Assembly: GCF_038957035.1 (NCBI RefSeq)
Contig: NZ_CP152412.1
Location: 6,196,501 to 6,260,500 of the forward strand
Source of the DNA: Bradyrhizobium sp. B097
GTDB taxonomy: Bacteria > Pseudomonadota > Alphaproteobacteria > Rhizobiales > Xanthobacteraceae
DNA: 64,000 nucleotides
Direction of reading: 5' to 3'
The position numbers and the translations under genes are program-made. The stretch's first letter is position 1. Every line of letters begins with the position of its first letter. Positions 2,032-49,435 of this stretch are shown in pieces. A model generated the notes under the pieces. It searched no databases. It saw only the letters and a program-made list of their open reading frames with translations, and was not told the DNA's origin.

Positions 2032-3165
2032 ATGAAATCACCGATCTGCGACATGCTGGGAATTGAATTCCCTCTGCTGGCTTTCAGCCATTGCCGCGAC
2101 GTGGTAGCGGCGGTCAGCCGCGCCGGCGGCTTCGGCGTGTTCGGCGCGACCCGGTACTTGCCGGAGACGCTGGAGCAGGAATTGAAATGGATCGACGATC
2201 ACGTCGACGGCAAGCCCTACGGCATCGACGTGCTGATCCCCGAGAATATCTCGACCGCGGGTGAGAAGAACGTCACCTGGAAGAGCCTCGAGAAACGGGT
2301 CTCGCAGGAGCATCGCGATTTCACCCGCAATCTGCTCAAGAAATACAACATCGAGCTCACGGCGCAGAGCGTTGCCGACAACCAGCCGCAGCCGTTCGAT
2401 GCCGAGACTGCGCTGCAATTGCTCGAGGTCTCGTTCCGCCATCCGATCCGGCTGATCGCCAACGCGCTCGGCGTGCCGCCGAAGGCGATGATCGAGATGG
2501 GCCGCAAGCACGGTGTGCCGGTGGCGGCGCTGGTCGGCTCCAAGGAGCATGCGCTGCGCCAGGTCGCGGCCGGTGTCGACATTCTGGTCGCGCAAGGCAC
2601 CGAGGCTGGCGGCCATTGCGGCGAAGTCTCGACCATGGTGCTGGTGCCCGAGGTGATCAAGGCGGTCAGGAAGATCCACGACGTGCCGGTGCTCGCCGCC
2701 GGCGGCATCATGACCGGCAGCCAGATGGCGGCCTGCATGGCGATGGGCGCCGCCGGCGCCTGGACCGGCTCGGTGTGGCTTGCGACCGTGGAGTCGGAGA
2801 CCTCGGAGATATTCCGCGAGAAGATGATCGCGGCCTCCTCGCGCGACGCCATCCGCTCGAAGGGCCGCACCGGCAAGCCGGCGCGGCAGCTCCGCTCGGT
2901 CTGGACCGACGCCTGGGACCGCTCGCCGGACAGCCCCGGCGCGCTGCCGATGCCGCTGCAAAGCATCATCAGCCGCGACGCCTTCAACGCCATCGACCGC
3001 GCCGCTGCCGCCGGCAACGAGAAGGCGCGCGATCTCGTCAGCTATTTCGTCGGCCAGGGCGTCGGCCTGGTCGACAGCGTGAAGTCGGCGGGCGCCGTGG
3101 TGCAGGAGTTCAAGGAAGATTTCGTCGAAGCCGTCGAGCACATGAACACGCTGGTGGCGGAGTAG
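2032..3165 (+). CDS. Nitronate monooxygenase / 2-nitropropane dioxygenase-like flavoprotein
   Basis: A 377-residue TIM-barrel FMN protein. Visible features are the N-terminal CDMLGIEFPLLAFSHC, the glycine-rich GTEAGGHCG segment with the family's conserved His (about residue 195), the following beta strand and VPVLAAGGIMTGSQMAA phosphate-binding loop, and AMGAAGAWTGSVWL. Members oxidise alkyl nitronates or act as related FMN oxidoreductases. The ATG at 2032 has GGGAG about 10 bases upstream and begins where homology begins; the in-frame upstream extension is not conserved-looking. It is transcribed away from yghU and is followed by a repeat and a thiolase-like gene. Confidence 0.85.
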   Translation: MKSPICDMLGIEFPLLAFSHCRDVVAAVSRAGGFGVFGATRYLPETLEQELKWIDDHVDGKPYGIDVLIPENISTAGEKNVTWKSLEKRVSQEHRDFTRNLLKKYNIELTAQSVADNQPQPFDAETALQLLEVSFRHPIRLIANALGVPPKAMIEMGRKHGVPVAALVGSKEHALRQVAAGVDILVAQGTEAGGHCGEVSTMVLVPEVIKAVRKIHDVPVLAAGGIMTGSQMAACMAMGAAGAWTGSVWLATVESETSEIFREKMIAASSRDAIRSKGRTGKPARQLRSVWTDAWDRSPDSPGALPMPLQSIISRDAFNAIDRAAAAGNEKARDLVSYFVGQGVGLVDSVKSAGAVVQEFKEDFVEAVEHMNTLVAE

Positions 3166-3179
3166 CACAACAGCACAAC

Positions 3180-3263
3180 CGTCATTGCGAGGAGCGAAGC
3201 GACGAAGCAATCCACCTCTCCCCGGGTCGAGATATGGATTGCTTCGCTTCGCTCGCAATGACG
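3180..3263. repeat. Palindromic intergenic repeat, family A (copy 1)
   Basis: Left arm GTCATTGCGAGGAGCGAAGC plus GACGAAGCAATCCA; right arm ATGGATTGCTTCGC plus TTCGCTCGCAATGACG. The arms are near-complementary. A second copy with the same arms lies at 55359-55448 inside the paa operon. It occupies most of the spacer between the nitronate-monooxygenase-like and thiolase-like genes. Confidence 0.9.
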
Positions 3264-3309
3264 CCTAGAACAACTATCGAGCCCAATACCTCAGAGTGAA
3301 GCAACAAGA

Positions 3310-4821
3310 ATGTCGAACAGCATCCCCGAAGACCGCATCCCCGTCATCGTCGGCGTCGGTGAGATCGTCGATCGTCCCAAGGACATCGCCGCAGGCCTCG
3401 AGCCGCTTGCCCTGCTGGAAGAGGCGCTGAAGCGCGCCGAGGCCGACAGCGGCGCCAAGCTGCTCCCCGACGTGCAATCGCTCGACGTCGTCAACTTCAT
3501 GAGCTGGCGCTACCGCGACCCGGAGCAGCAGCTTGCGCAACGTCTCGGCATCGCACCCGCGCATCTTGGTTACGGTCCGATCAGCGGCGAAAGCCCGATC
3601 CGCTTTGTGCACGAGGCGGCGCTGCGCATCATGCGCGGCGAATGCAGCGTCGCCGCAGTCTGTGGTGCCGAGGCGCAGTCGACCGCGACGAAAGCGCAGC
3701 GCGCCGGCGTGGAGCTGCCCTGGACGCCGTTCGCACATGACGTCGAGGAGCCGAAACGCGGTGCCGCGTTCCAGAAGCCGATGGCCGTGACGCTCGGCGT
3801 GTTTAGGCCGATTACGGTCTATCCGCTCTATGAATCCGCAACATCTGCGCATTGGGGGCAGACCCCGCGCGAGGCGCTGAAGGAGTCCGGCGATCTGTGG
3901 TCGACCTATGCGCGCGTCGCGGCCTACAATCCGAACTCATGGCTCAAGAAGCGCTTCAGCGGCGAGCAGATCACGACGCCGACGCCGGACAACCGGATGA
4001 TCGCCTGGCCCTACACAAAATTGATGGTGGCGAACCCGATGGTGAACATGGGCGGCGCGCTGATCCTGACCAGCCTCGCCAAGGCGCGTGCCGCCGGCGT
4101 GCCGGAAGACAAGCTGGTCTATCCGCTCGGCGGTGGCTACGCCGAAGAGCCGCGCGACTATCTGATCCGCGACCAGTTCGTCGAAAGCCACGCGCAGACC
4201 GCGGTGCTGAAGACTGTGATGGACCTCGTCGAAGGCGACGGCCGGAAGTTCGACGCGATCGAGCTCTATAGCTGCTTCCCCTGCGTGCCGAAGATGGCGC
4301 GCCGGACCCTGGGCCTGGGCCGCGACGTGCAGCCGACGGTGACCGGCGGCCTGACCTTCTTCGGTGCGCCGCTCGCCACCTACATGACGCATGCGGCTTG
4401 CGCGATGGTGCGTAAACTGAGAAACGGCGGGAAGCTCGGCTTGCTCTACGGCCAGGGCGGCTTCGTCACCAAGCACCACGGCCTCGTGTTGTCGCGCGTG
4501 GCGCCGAAGGCCGCGCTTGCGCAGGACATCAGCGTACAAGCGGAGGCCGACCGGCATCGCGGCACGGCGCCCCAATTCACGACCGAGGCCCGCGGCAAGG
4601 GCAAGGTCGAGGCCTTCACCGTGATCTATCGCGCCAATGGCGAGGTCGAGCACGGCGTCACCATGCTGCGCACCGAAGACGGAAGGCGCACGCTCGGCCG
4701 CATCCCGGCAAGCGACGCGGCGACGCTGACGCATCTGCAGGATATGGACCGCACGCCGGTCGGCACGCTCGGCGACATCGTCACGGCCGCTGACGGCATG
4801 TTGGAATGGAGGGTGGCGTAA
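3310..4821 (+). CDS. Thiolase-like protein (TLP1/SCP2-thiolase type) with C-terminal OB-like domain
   Basis: A 503-residue thiolase-superfamily protein, often annotated acetyl-CoA acetyltransferase. Thiolase-fold segments are RIPVIVGVGEI at the N-terminus, ALRIMRGECSVAAVCGAEAQ (about 104-123), NPMVNMGGALILTS, and FDAIELYSCFPC, which takes the place of the NEAF/HDCF loop. The last ~90 residues (after GLVLSRVAP) fit the extra C-terminal domain of thiolase-like protein type 1. The usual catalytic positions are changed: the nucleophile Cys is Ser92 (PISGES), and the GHP His motif reads FGAP (351-354). Acyl-CoA binding is plausible, but thiolysis by the classical mechanism is not. Confidence 0.8.
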   Translation: MSNSIPEDRIPVIVGVGEIVDRPKDIAAGLEPLALLEEALKRAEADSGAKLLPDVQSLDVVNFMSWRYRDPEQQLAQRLGIAPAHLGYGPISGESPIRFVHEAALRIMRGECSVAAVCGAEAQSTATKAQRAGVELPWTPFAHDVEEPKRGAAFQKPMAVTLGVFRPITVYPLYESATSAHWGQTPREALKESGDLWSTYARVAAYNPNSWLKKRFSGEQITTPTPDNRMIAWPYTKLMVANPMVNMGGALILTSLAKARAAGVPEDKLVYPLGGGYAEEPRDYLIRDQFVESHAQTAVLKTVMDLVEGDGRKFDAIELYSCFPCVPKMARRTLGLGRDVQPTVTGGLTFFGAPLATYMTHAACAMVRKLRNGGKLGLLYGQGGFVTKHHGLVLSRVAPKAALAQDISVQAEADRHRGTAPQFTTEARGKGKVEAFTVIYRANGEVEHGVTMLRTEDGRRTLGRIPASDAATLTHLQDMDRTPVGTLGDIVTAADGMLEWRVA

Positions 4822-4997: not shown

Positions 4998-6200
4998 TTA
5001 CCCCTTCACATCCTGCTTTTCGGACGCCGTCGTTGGCTTGCTCTTGGCACCGGCACCGGTGACGCGGACACGATCGCCGTCGGCGAGGCCGTCCGGCGGA
5101 GCGGTGATGATGCGGTCGTCGGGCGCGAGGCCCGAGGCGATCTCGATCTCCTTGCCGAGGTCGCGGCCGATCTTGACGGTCTTGAACAGCACCTTGTCAT
5201 CGGGGCTGACGGTTGCGACCCGCAGGCCGTTGCTGTTGAAGATCAGCGCGCTGGCGGGAATGCTGAGCGGCGCGGCCTCGCGCTGCAAATTGAGCTTCAC
5301 GCTGGCATAGCTGCCCGGCATCAGCTCGCCGGAGGAATTGTCGAGCCCGAGTTGCATCCGCGTGGTGCCGGAGGCGACATCGACCGCCTGCGAGGAGGCT
5401 TCCACCGTCGCTTGGAACGTGCGGTTCGGGTAATCCGGCATCACCAAGGAGGCCTTGGCGCCGATCTTGATCGCCGGAACGTAGTTCTGCGGCACGTTGA
5501 CGTAGACGCGCAGCTTGGTGATGTCCGAGATCGTGAACATCGCGGGACCCGAGTTGCCGCCGGCGTTGATCAGCGCGCCGACGTCGGTGTCGCGCGAGGT
5601 CACCACGCCGTCGAACGGCGCCGTGATCTTCTTGTAGCCGGCGAGCGCTTCCAGCCGCTCGACATTGGCCTGGCCGGACCTGACCGCACCGTTCTTGTTG
5701 GAGAGGTCGGCGGTGCGCTCGTCGATCTCCTGGGCGGAGACGAAGTTCGAGGCGACCAGCGTCTTGCGCCGGGTCAGCGTCGCCTCGGAGAGCTTGGCGG
5801 AGGCCTGGGCGCTGGCGAGATCGGCGCGCGCCTGCAGCAATTGCTGGTCGAGGTCGGGCGCCTCGATCTCGGCGATCACCTGGCCGGCCTTGACGCGGGC
5901 GCCGATGTCGGCGTCCCAGTTCTTGAGATAGCCGGACACCCGGGCGAAGATCGGTGCACGGGAATAGGCCTCGAGCCGGCCCGGCAGGTCGATCGTGGGG
6001 CTCAGCGCCTTGGCGTTCGGCAGCGCCACGGCGACGGTCGGAATGGCCTGGTCGTCGGTCCATTCCTTCAGCCTTGTGTCCTGCTCCTCACGGGCGCGGA
6101 TGCCGGTGCCGACGATCAGCCCGGCGCCGACCAGTGCAACCACGCCGAATATGCCCAATTTCCGGCGAGACACCGGTGGGCGCTGTTCAGTGGGCTGCAT
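4998..6200 (-). CDS. RND efflux periplasmic adaptor subunit (HlyD/AcrA family)
   Basis: A 400-residue membrane-fusion protein. It has one N-terminal membrane segment (about residues 15-34, LGIFGVVALVGAGLIVG), a lipoyl half-motif (VSGYLKNWDADIGARVKAGQ, about 92-111), a coiled-coil hairpin rich in Ala/Gln/Leu (LDQQLLQARADLASAQASAK), the second lipoyl half (KKITAPFDGVVTSRDTDVGA) and a beta-barrel domain. It bridges the inner-membrane pump to an outer-membrane channel. The start overlaps the 3' end of the upstream RND permease gene by 14 bases, so translation is probably coupled. No outer-membrane factor gene is next to it. Confidence 0.93.
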   Translation of the reverse strand: MQPTEQRPPVSRRKLGIFGVVALVGAGLIVGTGIRAREEQDTRLKEWTDDQAIPTVAVALPNAKALSPTIDLPGRLEAYSRAPIFARVSGYLKNWDADIGARVKAGQVIAEIEAPDLDQQLLQARADLASAQASAKLSEATLTRRKTLVASNFVSAQEIDERTADLSNKNGAVRSGQANVERLEALAGYKKITAPFDGVVTSRDTDVGALINAGGNSGPAMFTISDITKLRVYVNVPQNYVPAIKIGAKASLVMPDYPNRTFQATVEASSQAVDVASGTTRMQLGLDNSSGELMPGSYASVKLNLQREAAPLSIPASALIFNSNGLRVATVSPDDKVLFKTVKIGRDLGKEIEIASGLAPDDRIITAPPDGLADGDRVRVTGAGAKSKPTTASEKQDVKG

Positions 6201-9200
6201 GCGGAATCTCCGATGAGGCGACGGCTTTGGCGCCTTGCTTCTTGTGTACCATACTGAATACCACGGGAACGAACATCAGCGTCGCGAAGGTTGCAAAGAT
6301 CAGGCCGCCGATCACGGCGCGGCCGAGCGGCGCGTTCTGCTCGCCGCCCTCGCCGAGCCCCAGCGCCATCGGCGCCATGCCGATGATCATGGCGAGCGCG
6401 GTCATCAGCACCGGGCGGAAGCGGACAAATCCGGCCTCCAGTGCGGCCGCGACGGGATCGCCAAGTTCCTCATAGCGCTCGCGGGCAAAGCTGATCACGA
6501 GCACGCTGTTGGCGGTCGCGACGCCCATGCACATGATGGCGCCGGTGAGCGCCGGAACCGACAGCGTGGTCTGGGTCGTGAACAGCATCCAGACAATGCC
6601 GGCAAGTGCAGCGGGCAGCGCCGTGATGATCACAAACGGATCCGACCAGGACTGGAAGTTCACCACGATCAGGAAATAGATCAAGACGACCGCGCCGAGC
6701 AGGCCGAACAGCAGGCCGGTGAAGGCCGAGTTCATGGTCTGCACCTGGCCGAGCAGCACCACCGAAGAGCCCTTCGGCACTTCCTTTGCGGTGTCGGCAA
6801 TCAGCTGGCGCACGTCGGTCGCGACGCCGCCGAGATCGCGGCCTTGCGTCGTGGCGTAGATCTGCACCAGCGACTGGATGTCATATTGCGACACCACCGC
6901 GCTCGAGGTCGCGCGCTTGATGTCGGCGATACCCCCGAGGATCGGCGCCTGGGTGTTGCCGGTCGCGGTGATCGGCAGCGTCTGCAGCGCGCTCAGCGAG
7001 TCGATCTGGTATTGCGGCGTCTGCATCACGATCGAATAGGACACGCCGTTATCGGGATTGAGATAGTAGGTCGGCGCGACCTGCGAGGAGCCGGCGAGGT
7101 TGACGACCAGCGAGTTGGTGACGTCGCGTTCGGTCAGGCCGACATATTGCGCGCGGGTGCGGTCGACATCGATATTGAAGGTCGGATTGTTCGGCGACTG
7201 CTGGATCCGCGCGTCGGCGATGCCGGGGATGCGCTTGATCTTGGCTAGCAGCTTGTTGGCGTAGGCGAAGTTGGCGTCGAGATTGGCGCCGCGGATTTGC
7301 AAATCGATCGGCGCCGGCGCGCCGAAGTTCAGAATCTGGCTGACGATGTCGGCGGGCAGGAACGCGAAGCTGGTGCCCGGAAACAGCCGCGGCAATTGCT
7401 CACGCAGCGCGCGGACATGCTGCTCGGTCGGCTTGTGGCCTTCCTTCAAGCGGATCTGGATGTCGCCGTCCTGCGGACCGATCACGCCGGTGTTGTTGTA
7501 GGTCATGTTGATGCCGGAGATCGGCATGCCGATGTTGTCGGTCATGGTCTCGATCTCGCCGGGGACCAGCTTGCGGATCGCCTTCTGGATGTCGGCGAGC
7601 TGGTTGGCGGTCTCCTCGACGCGGGTGCCGACCTGGGTGCGGACATGCATCAGGATGTTGCCGGCATCGACCGACGGAAAGAAGTTGCGCCCCAGGAACG
7701 GCACCAGCACGAACGACGCGGCGACCACCGCGAGGAAGCCGCCGACGAACACCTTGCGGTGGCCGAGCGCCATCTCGAGCAAACCGCGATAGCCGCCACG
7801 GATGCGCTCGAACCGCGCCTCGAAGCCGCGCTGGAACCAGACCAGGGGATTGCGCGACTTCGGCGGCGCGCCCTCGTGATGGACATGCGCCTGCAGCAAA
7901 TAGTTCGCCATGGTCGGCACCAAGGTGCGCGACAGGATGAACGACCAGATCATCGCGAACATGACGGCTTCGGCCATCGGCACGAACAGGAAGCGCGCCA
8001 CGCCGGTCAGAAAGAACATCGGCACGAACACGATGCAGATACAGAGCAGCGAGACGAAGGCCGGCGTCACGATCTGGTTGGCGCCGTCGAGGATCGACTG
8101 CTCGACCGGCTTGCCCTGCTCGAGATGGTAGTTGATGTTCTCGATCGTCACCGTGGCGTCGTCGACCAGGATGCCGACCGCGAGCGCAAGGCCGCCGAGC
8201 GTCATGATGTTCAGCGTCTCGCCGATCAGGGACAGCATGATGATGGCCCCGAGCACCGACAGCGGGATCGACACCGCGATGATGACGGTCGAGCGCCAGC
8301 TGCCGAGGAACAACAGGATCATCACGCTGGTGAGCAGCGCGGCGATCACGCCTTCGAAAGCGACGCCGGTGATCGCACCGCGGACGAACACCGACTGGTC
8401 GCCGATGAAGCCGATCTTGAGCGCATCCGGCATCTGGTCCTTGACGTCGATCACCTTCTGCTTGATGCCGGAGATGATATCGAGCGTCGAGGTGGCGCCG
8501 GCCTTCAGCACCATCATCAGCACCGAACGGTTGCCGTCGACATGGACGATGTTGGTCTGCGGCGGGTTGCCGTCGCGGACGGTGGCGACGTCACGCACAT
8601 AGACCATTGCGCCGTTGACCTGCTTGATCGGCAGGTCGCCGAGTTCCTCCATCCGGAGCGGCGAGTTGTTCAGGTTTACGGTGTATTCGAAATTGCCGAT
8701 CTTCTGCGTGCCGACCGGCGTGATCAGGTTTTGTGCCGCGAGCGTGTTGGCGACATCCTGGCCCGAGAGGCCGCGCGCCTGCAGCGCTGTCGAATTGAGA
8801 TCGATCTGGACCTGACGCTGCTTGCCGCCGAACGGATACGGGATCGCGGCGCCAGGCACTGTGACCAGCGGCGTGCGCAGCTGGTTGATGCCGATATCGG
8901 CGAGGTTCTGCTCGGTCAGGCCTTCGCCCGACAATGCGACCTGGATGATCGGAACCGTCGAGGCGCTGTAGTTGAGGATCAGCGGCGGCGTCGCGCCCGG
9001 CGGCATCTGCTTGAGCAGGGTCTGCGAAATCGCGGTGACCTGCGCGTTGGCGGTGCGGATGTCGACGTTGGGCTGGAAGAAGATCTTGATGATGCCGAAC
9101 CCGTTATACGAGTTGGCGGTGATGTGCTCGATGTCGTTGACCGTCGTGGTCAGCGCGCGCTGGAACGGCGAAGTAATGCGGCCGGCCATCTGGTCGGGCG

Positions 9201-46535: not shown

Positions 46536-47444
46536 ATGCCGCCCGTGAACCCGTCGCTCTCCCCTGCCAAAGCCGTTGTTTTGTTCATCGTCGTGGTGCT
46601 GGCCTGGGGCACCAACTGGTCGGTGACGAAATCGCTGGTCGAGGCGGTGCCGCCGCTGTGGACCGCATCGATCCGCAGCTGGGTCGCCCTGATCGCCTTG
46701 CTGGTGATCCTGCGCGCCAGCGGCAATCTGATCATCCCGCGGATCGCCGATATCCCTGTCGTGCTCAGCGTCGCGCTGCTGCACATGACGTTCTTCTCGA
46801 CACTGGTCGCCGCCGGCCTGCGCTATCTGCCGGCCAGCAAGGGCGTCGTGCTCGGCTACACCACGCCGCTCTGGGTCGCGCTGGCCGCGGGCGCGGCGCG
46901 CACCGAACGGCTCGGCGCGCTGAAGCTCGTCGGCGTCGCGTTGGGGCTCGCCGGGCTCTGCGTGATCCTCAACCCGGCATCGCTGGACTGGAGCAATCTG
47001 CATGTCATCGCCGGGGCCGGCATGATCATCATCGCCGCGATCTGCTGGGCCGCCAACATCATCTATATCCGCTCGCACCGCTGGGTCGCGACGCCGTTGC
47101 AGCTCCTGCTCTGGCAAGTGCTGGTGGCAACGGTGGTGCTGACGATGACGGCGCTGGTTACCGAAGGCATCCCCACGGTGAAATGGTCGCCGCACCTCGT
47201 GCTGCTGTTCCTCTATTCCGGCTTCATCGGCACGGCGCTGGCTTATTGGGCGATGTCTGTTGTCAACAAGAGCCTGCCGGCGCTCACGACCTCGCTCGGC
47301 ACGACGGGGACGCCGATCGTCGGCATCGTCACCGCGGCGCTGCTACTCGGCGAACCGATAGATCTGTCGCTCGCGATTGCCGCAGCCCTGATCGTCGGCG
47401 GGATTGCGTTGAGCTCGCTCGCGGATGCGCCATCGCGTGCGTAA
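46536..47444 (+). CDS. EamA/DMT-family transporter
   Basis: A 302-residue exporter with ten hydrophobic helices in two EamA repeats: first repeat from KAVVLFIVVVLAWGTNWSVT, second from AGAGMIIIAAICWAANIIYI; PALTTSLGTTGTPIVGIVTA lies near the end. These transporters export amino acids or other metabolites. Two starts are possible: ATG 46536 or GTG 46545, which has AAGGA at a better distance; homology starts after both. Probably controlled by the divergent MocR regulator. Its TAA stop lies one base before the TA at the left edge of the TIR element. Confidence 0.92.
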   Translation: MPPVNPSLSPAKAVVLFIVVVLAWGTNWSVTKSLVEAVPPLWTASIRSWVALIALLVILRASGNLIIPRIADIPVVLSVALLHMTFFSTLVAAGLRYLPASKGVVLGYTTPLWVALAAGAARTERLGALKLVGVALGLAGLCVILNPASLDWSNLHVIAGAGMIIIAAICWAANIIYIRSHRWVATPLQLLLWQVLVATVVLTMTALVTEGIPTVKWSPHLVLLFLYSGFIGTALAYWAMSVVNKSLPALTTSLGTTGTPIVGIVTAALLLGEPIDLSLAIAAALIVGGIALSSLADAPSRA

Positions 47445-47447
47445 TTA

Positions 47448-48380
47448 GGGCCTGTACTCATAGATTCGTCACGTCCGCTTCGGTCTCGGAAGCTGACGTC
47501 GAACCCTACGTCGCTGCATGTCGGCCTTGGGCCAAGAGGCAACATTGTAGATCAGCTCCAACGTGACAAGAAAGGCGCGTCCTTAGCGTTTGCGTCATCA
47601 TAGAGGCGGCAGAAGAATTGACGCCGCGCCAGGGCAGCTTGTAACAGTCCTCGCTTTAAGGGCAGCTTGGAGAATTGCACTTTGATGCGGTTCAGAAGGT
47701 TAATCGTCGTTTTAGGTGTCCTCCTCGTGTCGGTGGGCGCCGTAGTGCTCGGACGTAGAGCCTATGTTGAGGCGTTCGGCAGCGATGAGATGGATTACCG
47801 CGGCGAGAAGATCCGACTGTCAAAGAAGTATGTCGATTACGACGACTACAAGAACGATCCGGCCAACCTTGCAGCATCGGAGATTCCGCGCGTTGAGAAG
47901 CTCATGACAGATGCGCAGGTTGGCCCGGATTTCGCGGACTGGCACGACGTCGCGCATCAGCTCAGCAACATCAAGTTTCCGGGCTACGGCATGGCAAGCG
48001 GTGCAAACGTTGTCGCCGCCGGACGAGAGTTTGCCGTCCGATCCATGGAAATCCCGCAAGTCGCGAAGGAACGCTATTTCGTTCTCGAAAAGCTGGCAGG
48101 GGGGAGGTTCCGTCTGGCTGATGATTTCGTGACACGGCGCGACCCTGGGTCGGCTTTTGCCCCGATATCCTCCATTCACCTCGTTGACGACAGACTGGTT
48201 TATGCCGACCGCAATGGCAGGGTTGTCCGCGAGACGCCTGTAGCACGCTGAGAGGCCGCGTTCATTCCATCTACCGCTCACAAGGAATGGAGTCCGCTTT
48301 GGGTCAAAAGCCGCCGATAACTACCGAACCGGGCAACTTCCGCTTTATGACTGGAAGCCGACGGTCATGAGTACACGCCC
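47448..48380. mobile_element. 933-bp TIR-bounded element with TA flanks and one cargo gene
   Basis: The left end GGGCCTGTACTCAT (47448-47461) and the complement of the right end, GGGCGTGTACTCAT (48367-48380), match at 13 of 14 bases. TA dinucleotides flank both ends (47446-47447 and 48381-48382), as in IS630/Tc1-mariner-type insertions. There is no transposase; the only gene is the unknown protein at 47685-48251. Removing the element with one TA leaves the exporter stop TAA directly abutting a TAA stop for the convergent YeeE gene, a clean ancestral site. The family assignment is inferred from ends only. Confidence 0.75.
47685..48251 (+). CDS. Membrane-anchored protein of unknown function, cargo of TIR element
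   Basis: A 188-residue protein with one N-terminal membrane helix (about residues 5-24, LIVVLGVLLVSVGAVVLG) and an outward soluble domain. This domain has a charged region (DYRGEKIRLSKKYVDYDDYK), a middle part with IKFPGYGMASGANVV, and a beta-rich end (RYFVLEKLAGGRFRLADDFV). Codon use is more mixed than in neighbouring genes. The ATG at 47685 gives a normal signal anchor; a TTG at 47667 is also open. No family was recognised. It is the sole gene inside the element. Confidence 0.75.
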   Translation: MRFRRLIVVLGVLLVSVGAVVLGRRAYVEAFGSDEMDYRGEKIRLSKKYVDYDDYKNDPANLAASEIPRVEKLMTDAQVGPDFADWHDVAHQLSNIKFPGYGMASGANVVAAGREFAVRSMEIPQVAKERYFVLEKLAGGRFRLADDFVTRRDPGSAFAPISSIHLVDDRLVYADRNGRVVRETPVAR

Positions 48381-49435
48381 TAGGCCGTCGCGAGCGGCCT
48401 GACCCGCAAGCTCCCGCGCAGGCCGGCGCCGGTGCCGAGCATGATACCGGCGATTGCGATGAAGGACGACAGCGACAGCGTCGACAGTCCGGTCAGCCCC
48501 TGCCCGACCGAGCAGCCGAACGCCATCACGCCGCCCACGCCCATCAGCGCGGCGCCGCTTGCCGAGCGCAGCATGTGCTGCGGCGAGCGATAGCCTTCGA
48601 GCTGGAAGCGCCCGGTGGTAACAGCGGTGACCAGGCTGCCGGCGAACACGCCGAACACGGTGACGATGCCGAAATTGAGCGTCGAGCCGGTCGACAGCAT
48701 CACATATTGCAGGGCGTCGGCGATCGGCGCGATGAAGGTGAGCGACGTCACCGGTACCGGATTGAAATCATCGGCGCCGAGATAGCCGGTCGCGTACCAG
48801 CCGCCCGCCACCAGCAGGCCGACGATCAGGCCGGCCGCGATCTGGCCCGGCGATTTGCGGAACGGCGCATGGGCAAAGGCGAAAATGATCAGGACGGCTG
48901 ACAGCACCGAGGCCGCCACCATCCGCGCCGGCACCGCGCCAAGGCCGATGCTTGCCAATAGCGCCGGCACCGAATTGGCCGACACCGTGGCCTGCGACGC
49001 CTGCACCATTGCGATCCGCATCGGCGCGATCAGGCCCTTCAGCGTCATCTCGGCAAAGATGCCGAGCACGATCACGACCACAAAGGACCGCAGGTTGCCG
49101 CGCCCGAGCAGCACCAGCGCCCGCGAGCCGCAACCGTTCGACAGCACCATGCCGTAGCCGAACAACAGCCCGCCGAGGAACATCACCGGCGCCGAGAATG
49201 ACGGCTGCAGATAGATCGACTTGCCGAGATCGACGAGGCCGGCCGCCGCCAGCAGCTGCGAGGCCGCGATCGCAACCCCCATCGCCAGCGCGTAGGTGCG
49301 CACCAGCCGGCCGTCACCATCAGCCCACCAGCCACGCAGGCCGCTCATCATGCAGAAGCCGCTGACGAGCCCGACCGAGCCATAGATCAGGCCGATGATC
49401 AGGGCGGCGAGGATGACGATCGTGGCGGGGTCCAT
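48380..49435 (-). CDS. YeeE/YedE-family sulfur-compound transporter
   Basis: A 351-residue integral membrane protein made of two similar halves. Family motifs with conserved Cys are SGFCMMSGLRGWW near the N-terminus, LSNGCGSRALVLLGRGNLRS (about 98-117) and GCSVGQGLTGLSTLSL near the C-terminus. Thiosulfate-uptake proteins of this family pass substrate along such Cys residues. Its TAG stop is formed from the TA target site plus the first base of the neighbouring TIR element. No sulfur-metabolism genes are adjacent. Confidence 0.92.
   Translation of the reverse strand: MDPATIVILAALIIGLIYGSVGLVSGFCMMSGLRGWWADGDGRLVRTYALAMGVAIAASQLLAAAGLVDLGKSIYLQPSFSAPVMFLGGLLFGYGMVLSNGCGSRALVLLGRGNLRSFVVVIVLGIFAEMTLKGLIAPMRIAMVQASQATVSANSVPALLASIGLGAVPARMVAASVLSAVLIIFAFAHAPFRKSPGQIAAGLIVGLLVAGGWYATGYLGADDFNPVPVTSLTFIAPIADALQYVMLSTGSTLNFGIVTVFGVFAGSLVTAVTTGRFQLEGYRSPQHMLRSASGAALMGVGGVMAFGCSVGQGLTGLSTLSLSSFIAIAGIMLGTGAGLRGSLRVRPLATA

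Follow-up and report, generated by a model that had tools for sequence, protein, structure and literature searches.

We propose that the 933-bp unit lying between the convergent eamA and yeeE genes of Bradyrhizobium sp. B097 (positions 47448-48380 of the window, the whole 64-kb stretch of DNA analysed here) is an IS5-type shell acting as the landing pad of an integron-like cassette system run by a tyrosine recombinase of about 210 amino acids (aa), a reading to which we assign a probability of roughly two in three. According to this model, a transposase-less shell related to an IS5-family insertion sequence, with the plan TIR-M-C, cargo, T-M-TIR, would have been moved in trans, presumably by an IS5 transposase, to a TA that lay between eamA and yeeE in a bacterium ancestral to a group of Bradyrhizobium species. 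The cargo would be a gene cassette held by two sites of the same orientation, with arms GTCCGCTT/AAGCGGAC around an asymmetric YGGGYCA centre, and the recombinase, which comprises the catalytic domain only and is carried as an 804-814 bp module between sites of the same kind, would exchange cassettes at the centres, so that the shell persists and its contents turn over.

The unit, its ends and its cargo gene

The window belongs to a genome of 9.25 Mb in a single contig. The terminal inverted repeats of the unit match at 13 of 14 positions, and the 64-kb window contains no other pair of TA-flanked 14-bp inverted sequences that match at 13 or more positions and lie 0.2-10 kb apart (Table 1). An earlier note on this DNA, made from the sequence alone, had described the repeats, the flanking TA and a single gene without a transposase between them; the former were confirmed, and the open reading frames and Pfam searches bore out the latter. 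The yeeE stop codon in the window is TAG, its C being supplied by the last base of the terminal repeat. A plasmid search for the unit returned no copy at E≤1e-5, and no known family was matched in an RNA family search.

Table 1. Features of the unit and its neighbours; positions are those of the window.
Feature	Position	Strand	Remark
EamA/DMT-family exporter gene, left neighbour	46536..47444	+	Pfam EamA 117.6 bits; stop TAA 47442-47444
Left-flank TA, putative target duplication	47446..47447	.	read from sequence
Left terminal inverted repeat GGGCCTGTACTCAT	47448..47461	+	
Left M site, accessory arm pair	47473..47497	+	47 bp before C site
C-type site GTCGGCCT-TGGGCCA-A-GAGGCAAC	47520..47543	+	10/16 arm letters; inner border of left shell end
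Cargo cassette between C and T sites	47535..48291	+	772 bp site to site
Cargo gene, 188 aa, predicted N-terminal membrane helix and alpha/beta domain	47685..48251	+	family unnamed
T-type site GTCCGCTT-TGGGTCA-A-AAGCCGCC	48292..48315	+	14/16 arm letters; inner border of right shell end
Right M site	48338..48362	+	46 bp after T site
Right terminal inverted repeat, ATGAGTACACGCCC as written on the forward strand	48367..48380	-	GGGCGTGTACTCAT on the minus strand
Right-flank TA	48381..48382	.	
YeeE-type transporter gene (Sulf_transp), right neighbour	48380..49435	-	Pfam Sulf_transp 213.6 bits

The end pattern (at most 1 mismatch) has 15 matches in the unit's own genome versus 1 for the reversed control, and TAGGGCGTGTACTCATAAA (at most 2 mismatches) was found in 170 of 195 genomes of the genus, the reversed control being present in 36 by our count from the listing. 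Elements excised between such ends carry genes for NhaA, trypsin, catalase, EamA, beta-lactamase-fold proteins and hydrolases. The earlier note was right in describing a non-autonomous mobile element with a gene for a membrane-anchored protein, and the elements with different cargo that it had proposed to look for exist in the genus.

The same note had assigned the element to the IS630/Tc1-mariner group and proposed to look for an IS630-type element with the same ends; our data do not support the assignment. An IS5-family transposase gene (NF033580, 304.9 bits, cut-off 110) carries the sequence GGGCGTG[T/G]ACTCAT (at most 2 mismatches) at its 3' end in 28 of 30 fetched loci, in 27 of them with TA outside, and the ends are therefore IS5-type, not IS630. 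The transposase itself (E≤1e-60) was found in 45 of 117 genomes. In most compared copies its module starts at GGG[T/C]CA, with unrelated sequence upstream, and neither a simple autonomous insertion sequence (IS) with both ends nor the left end of an intact one was found among the compared transposase modules. The 106 unique TA-flanked ends comprise 28 transposase 3' ends, 18 ends with a C site inward, 20 with a T site inward, 2 that violate the site rule and 38 without a site within 150 bp. As possible IS630 parents we considered an IS630-family gene in L060 (122.8 bits, cut-off 100), which lies beside an element with such ends but outside them, and two further genes, IS630 by eye, in L026 and L068, which likewise lie outside; all three were rejected. 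In these three genomes the genes, one assigned to the IS630 type by its score and two by eye, adjoin the IS5-type ends at a common TA (tccagatgacTA).

Relatives of the cargo protein were found in 6 of 195 genomes of the genus, including its own (E≤0.001). In G107 a copy lies at another locus; identity is 97.9% across the first 866 of 933 bp and the sequence differs over the remaining 67 bp, and the chromosomal flanks of the two genomes are more diverged than the unit (88% and 95%). The G107 copy has TA-flanked inverted ends that are imperfect, one with an extra base, and these escape the end scan because they lie outside its 2-mismatch limit. The occurrence of the same gene at another locus of a relative, between TA-flanked ends, argues that the unit is mobile. 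Beside L007, L008, L010 and L011, the end scan (at most 2 mismatches) found no ends, and the cargo-gene copies in L008, L010 and L011 have no such inverted repeat directly adjoining. L007 has the same site-to-site interval of 772 bp at another locus, and in L008, L009 and L011 the cargo cassette is attached to other flanks. The cargo forms a module of its own, bounded and exchangeable, which the earlier note had missed.

The cargo gene is under purifying selection: its dN/dS was 0.18-0.51 for pairs involving the window copy, and for the closest pair, L008-L009, it was 1.22 on very few changes. The predicted fold, a membrane helix followed by a small alpha/beta domain, had no match in the PDB at E≤0.001, Pfam gave only a sub-threshold match to WZC_N, and NCBIfam gave none. 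Distant relatives of the protein (32-36%) occur outside the genus in metagenome-assembled genomes of Sulfotelmatobacter, Planctomycetaceae and Acidobacteria (L143-L145).

The presence of a passenger gene, but no transposase, between ends that match those of the IS5 family at the transposase 3' end is what would be expected of an IS5-derived mobile insertion cassette (MIC), and we considered whether the unit is nothing else: an IS5-type element with a passenger, moved in trans, without a second recombination system. The ends shared with IS5-family transposase modules and the copy elsewhere fit such an element, but it leaves the turnover of cargo at one site and the rules of the inner sites, both described below, without explanation, and we regard it as very improbable.

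One junction, one shell, different contents

A joined-flank search of the eamA-yeeE junction, in which two candidates were scored per genome, yielded five relatives without an insert, with a gap of 0-2 nt between the two genes by flank alignment, and many others with inserts of differing size. The earlier note had argued that the empty site can be reconstructed and that strains with an empty junction should be sought. Such strains exist among the relatives, and excising the unit plus one TA indeed brings TAA and TTA together; the letters of the empty junctions differ, however, from the reconstructed site, so that the TA on both flanks is consistent with a 2-bp target duplication, which is not thereby proven.

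Among 20 junctions fetched from relatives, eight show the left and the right shell end at the same position (L101, L102, L103, L105, L110, L116, L117 and L119), two have partial shells (L104 and L108), eight hold other inserts without the repeats and two were not assessable. One left repeat among the eight full shells is damaged, the right end of L102 is reduced to about 31 bp, and the left flank of the L103 and L104 shells reads AA or GA, not TA. In blastn comparisons (E≤1e-6), the similarity of the ten full or partial shells to the window unit is confined to, at most, the unit's first 99 and last 93 bases; their contents, which include adenylate cyclases, an FAD enzyme, a rhodanese, an AraC-type regulator with a beta-lactamase-fold protein, a hydrolase, an IS and unknowns, show no relation to the window unit beyond the ends. 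At this junction the shell is conserved and the cargo is replaced. When the left ends of 12 elements were aligned, GGGCCA stood at the break in 10 rows, the exceptions being L103 and L116; at the right ends of the same 12 elements, GGGTCA was found in 8 and a one-letter variant in L105 and L119, and the site is absent from L102 and L104.

The shell of G068 at this junction (L101) contains a decayed recombinase module, and in its interior long matches stop at gene ends and not at sites (a GST/SDR/LysR cluster). The same insert includes a second right shell end with more than 100 bp of yeeE (5187-5396 of the query), which is a trace of a past duplication.

The eight unrelated inserts without these ends could indicate that the junction is a hot spot, at which ready-made IS5-type elements, each with its own cargo, repeatedly and independently hit the same TA. 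Most shells at the junction share their outer left-end letters (GGGCCTGTACTCATAGA or near), which are absent from the copy elsewhere and point to one old insertion, and we consider repeated insertion improbable. Six of the other inserts (L106, L107, L109, L112, L114 and L115) begin with a different common sequence, approximately AGAGCAGGATGAAGTTAAGTTGAAACGGTTTGACC, so the junction tolerates more than one kind of insertion.

Sites, spacing and borders

The full site reads GTCCGCTT-YGGGYCA-N-AAGCGGAC, with inverted arms around an asymmetric centre, as in the core sites of tyrosine recombinases. Only two sites in the window reach at least 10 of 16 arm matches, and they are exactly the borders of the cargo. 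It is the full-site score alone that singles out these borders, for the half site at 3 mismatches gave 9 matches in the window versus 4.9 expected, which is not significant. Both the 181 sites in 183 collected loci (reversed control 0; three shuffles 1, 0 and 3) and the 250 unique sites used for counting the grammar, taken from all loci then collected, are not random samples, because the loci were chosen for holding ends, sites or recombinase. Genome-wide, 678 sites with at most 3 mismatches were found across 195 genomes, 166 of which contain at least one; the control gave 11. The half site GTCCGCTTNGGGTCA (one mismatch) has only 9 occurrences in the unit's genome and 3 in the control, which led us to reject a genome-wide REP-like hairpin; of seven occurrences examined, five lie within 200 bp of end-like sequence (at most 3 mismatches) and two lie farther away in one such region.

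Of 128 pairs of neighbouring sites in the collected loci, 124 have a common orientation and 4 are opposed. Gaps from T to C are of fixed length in 33 of 38 cases, namely 45-46 bp (8), 90-93 bp (13) or 804-814 bp (12); gaps from C to T hold cargo and span 360-7586 bp (n=57). Like neighbours like in 29 of the 128 pairs (T-T 18, C-C 11). The third, degenerate site, M, was scored by its left arm (5 or more of 8 letters). For 110 T sites the arm lies at +45 in 27% and at +46 in 45%; for 81 C sites it lies at -47 in 48% and at -48 in 21%; at random positions the figure is 3.5%. One run, in L295 (G182:C1:1350000-1361500), consists of eight same-orientation sites with genes between them and a TA-flanked inverted repeat at the end.

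Sequence identity changes abruptly at the centres. At 10 shell left ends it drops from 0.94 just before the centre to 0.25 beyond the arm, and at 12 right borders of recombinase modules from 0.83-1.00 to 0.25 at the centre. It rises from 0.26 to 0.90 at 6 shell right ends (those found by pattern out of 10), from 0.29 to about 0.6 at 17 recombinase left borders and from 0.25 to about 0.45 at 17 left borders of transposase modules. We searched 195 genomes with a 161-nt query that joins the two shell ends (joint at 81-87), scoring four candidates per genome. Of the left-end matches, 31 of 31 terminate at 83-96; of the 72 right-end matches, 69 begin at 66-83 and three further in. No empty shell was found among the candidates of this search. 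The sole match across the joint, at 755-930 of L350 (G108:C61:57800-59500), is weak (72%) and corresponds to an M-T-M-C run without inverted repeats, which could be an emptied site.

We also examined BLAST match ends blindly in 175 loci: 149 of 1176 end clusters lie within 12 bp of GGGYCA, where about 39 (3.3%) are expected, and four control words gave 14, 12, 33 and 34 against expectations of about 14, 5, 25 and 24. This test was only moderately clear, one control word being enriched too, and the aligned border sets are sharper. Borders arising by chance were rejected, as the aligned module borders show sharp identity breaks at the centre.

The main rival to cassette exchange is homologous recombination, in which RecA-type exchange between family copies would swap cargo by way of the roughly 80-90 bp common to each end, the sites being conserved inner borders and the recombinase a passenger. 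Templates would be at hand, for shell-end matches occur in 52 of 195 genomes, many of them at other loci, and the difference between the window and L007 beyond the right border is what a crossover at or close to the T site would produce. What this process does not account for are the fixed gaps of 45-46, 90-93 and 804-814 bp, the common orientation, the inverted-arm architecture and the sharp borders of modules whose flanks are unrelated, nor does it explain why the centre letters go with the recombinase subfamily (see below). We judge it unlikely, and cassette exchange by the recombinase inside IS5-type shells explains the data best.

A small tyrosine recombinase between the sites

The 804-814 bp module encodes a protein of about 210 aa that belongs to the Phage_integrase family (72.6 bits, cut-off 27.1). 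R62, K90, H158, R161, H184 and Y193 are invariant in 18 members, and we take this R-K-H-R-H-Y series to be the catalytic set. The predicted structure is similar to those of XerA, XerH, integron integrase and Cre, and profile, residues and predicted fold together place the protein in the tyrosine recombinase superfamily. Whole or in pieces, the gene is present in 80 of 195 genomes of the genus; across the class, 13 of 337 genomes gave a match (E≤1e-30), as did 435 of 72,556 plasmid records (E≤1e-20).

The recombinase gene lies between sites, both flanking sites reaching threshold in 12 of 20 fetched loci, and the letters of the centre go with the recombinase subfamily. In divergent members (57-59% identity), flanking sites were found at 8 of the 9 intact genes examined (a tenth, with a stop codon, was left out), and their 15 sites have the centre GCGCCA in 14 cases, GTGCCA in 1 and GGGYCA in none. 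Of four members with 79-83% identity, a GTGCCA-centred site is present in two and a GGGCCA-centred one in the third; the fourth has none. GCGCCA-centred sites also occur in G154, G158 and G177, genomes without a recombinase match. On a plasmid of Roseomonas gilardii (L319, NZ_CP015585.1), a unit of toxin-antitoxin and recombinase genes is repeated at 2398-3888 and 5182-6677, with 91.9% identity across 1496 bp, amid small genes (catB, GST, NUDIX and VOC family). Its borders show by eye GTCCGCTT-like arms and a CCACCC-like centre, and a scan allowing any 7-bp centre found none at 12 of 16; this is perhaps the same system with another centre.

These observations suggest that the recombinase acts on T and C sites and that cassettes may move as circles. 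Several observations count against this reading: the lack of an empty shell among the scored candidates, the T-T and C-C pairs, the variation in centre letters, the GCGCCA sites in genomes without a recombinase match, the matches in the G068 shell that stop at gene ends and the cargo-gene copies without adjoining inverted repeats. The T and C centres, moreover, are constant on both sides of a module, so that a simple conservative crossover needs extra assumptions, and the correlation of recombinase and sites across genomes is weak: the 115 of 195 genomes without the recombinase average 2.8 sites versus 4.4 where it is present (Mann-Whitney p 0.003, relatedness not controlled). Nor was a recombinase detected at E≤1e-20 in the window genome (15 of 18 candidates scored) or in G107, and present activity is therefore not shown in these two genomes.

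We compared the system with known ones. Integrons are the textbook route by which bacteria stockpile and swap single genes, and the core of their attC sites is GTTRRRY. The present system resembles the IntI/attC pair in the predicted tyrosine-recombinase fold, in head-to-tail arrays of unrelated genes with commonly oriented sites, in the exchange of cargo and in compound attachment sites of about 70-116 bp. It differs in that the recombinase is a catalytic domain only of about 210 aa that scores 24.2 bits against a cut-off of 265 for the integron integrase profile (TIGR02249) and lies inside a module, in that the genes stand in both orientations and the shell is a transposon, and in that the centre is YGGGYCA with GTCCGCTT/AAGCGGAC arms and not GTTRRRY. 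MICs were described for IS231 of Bacillus; IS ends, a passenger gene, the lack of a transposase and presumed movement in trans are shared with them, but here the ends are IS5-type and the passenger is exchangeable at inner sites. The pdif modules of Acinetobacter plasmids, with XerC/XerD sites in alternating orientation, likewise hold genes between short sites of tyrosine-recombinase type; unlike them, the present system has another site sequence, a common orientation, compound T-M-C sites and a recombinase module of its own. Small invertases of the FimB/FimE type are of similar size, about 200 aa, and the recombinase scores weakly against them (21.2 and 13.9 bits, both far short of the cut-offs), whereas here there are cassette arrays, not an invertible element.

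Taken more widely, the data may describe an exchange system distinct from integrons, in which unrelated genes are moved between compound T-M-C sites by a catalytic-domain-only recombinase of about 210 aa, whose gene forms a fixed-length module within its own attachment site, IS5-type shells spread the landing pads through the genome, centres are specific to subfamilies, and plasmid relatives in many proteobacteria suggest that it is widespread; to this broader statement we give an even chance of being right. If true, it would be a second gene-swapping system, carried by transposon shells and equipped with a recombinase and a site grammar of its own, and it would assign a function to a recombinase family whose members in the plasmid records seen are, where annotated, called only 'tyrosine-type recombinase/integrase'. 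The model provides a directly testable recombinase-site pair and would explain why species of a large soil genus carry different genes at the same chromosomal spot.
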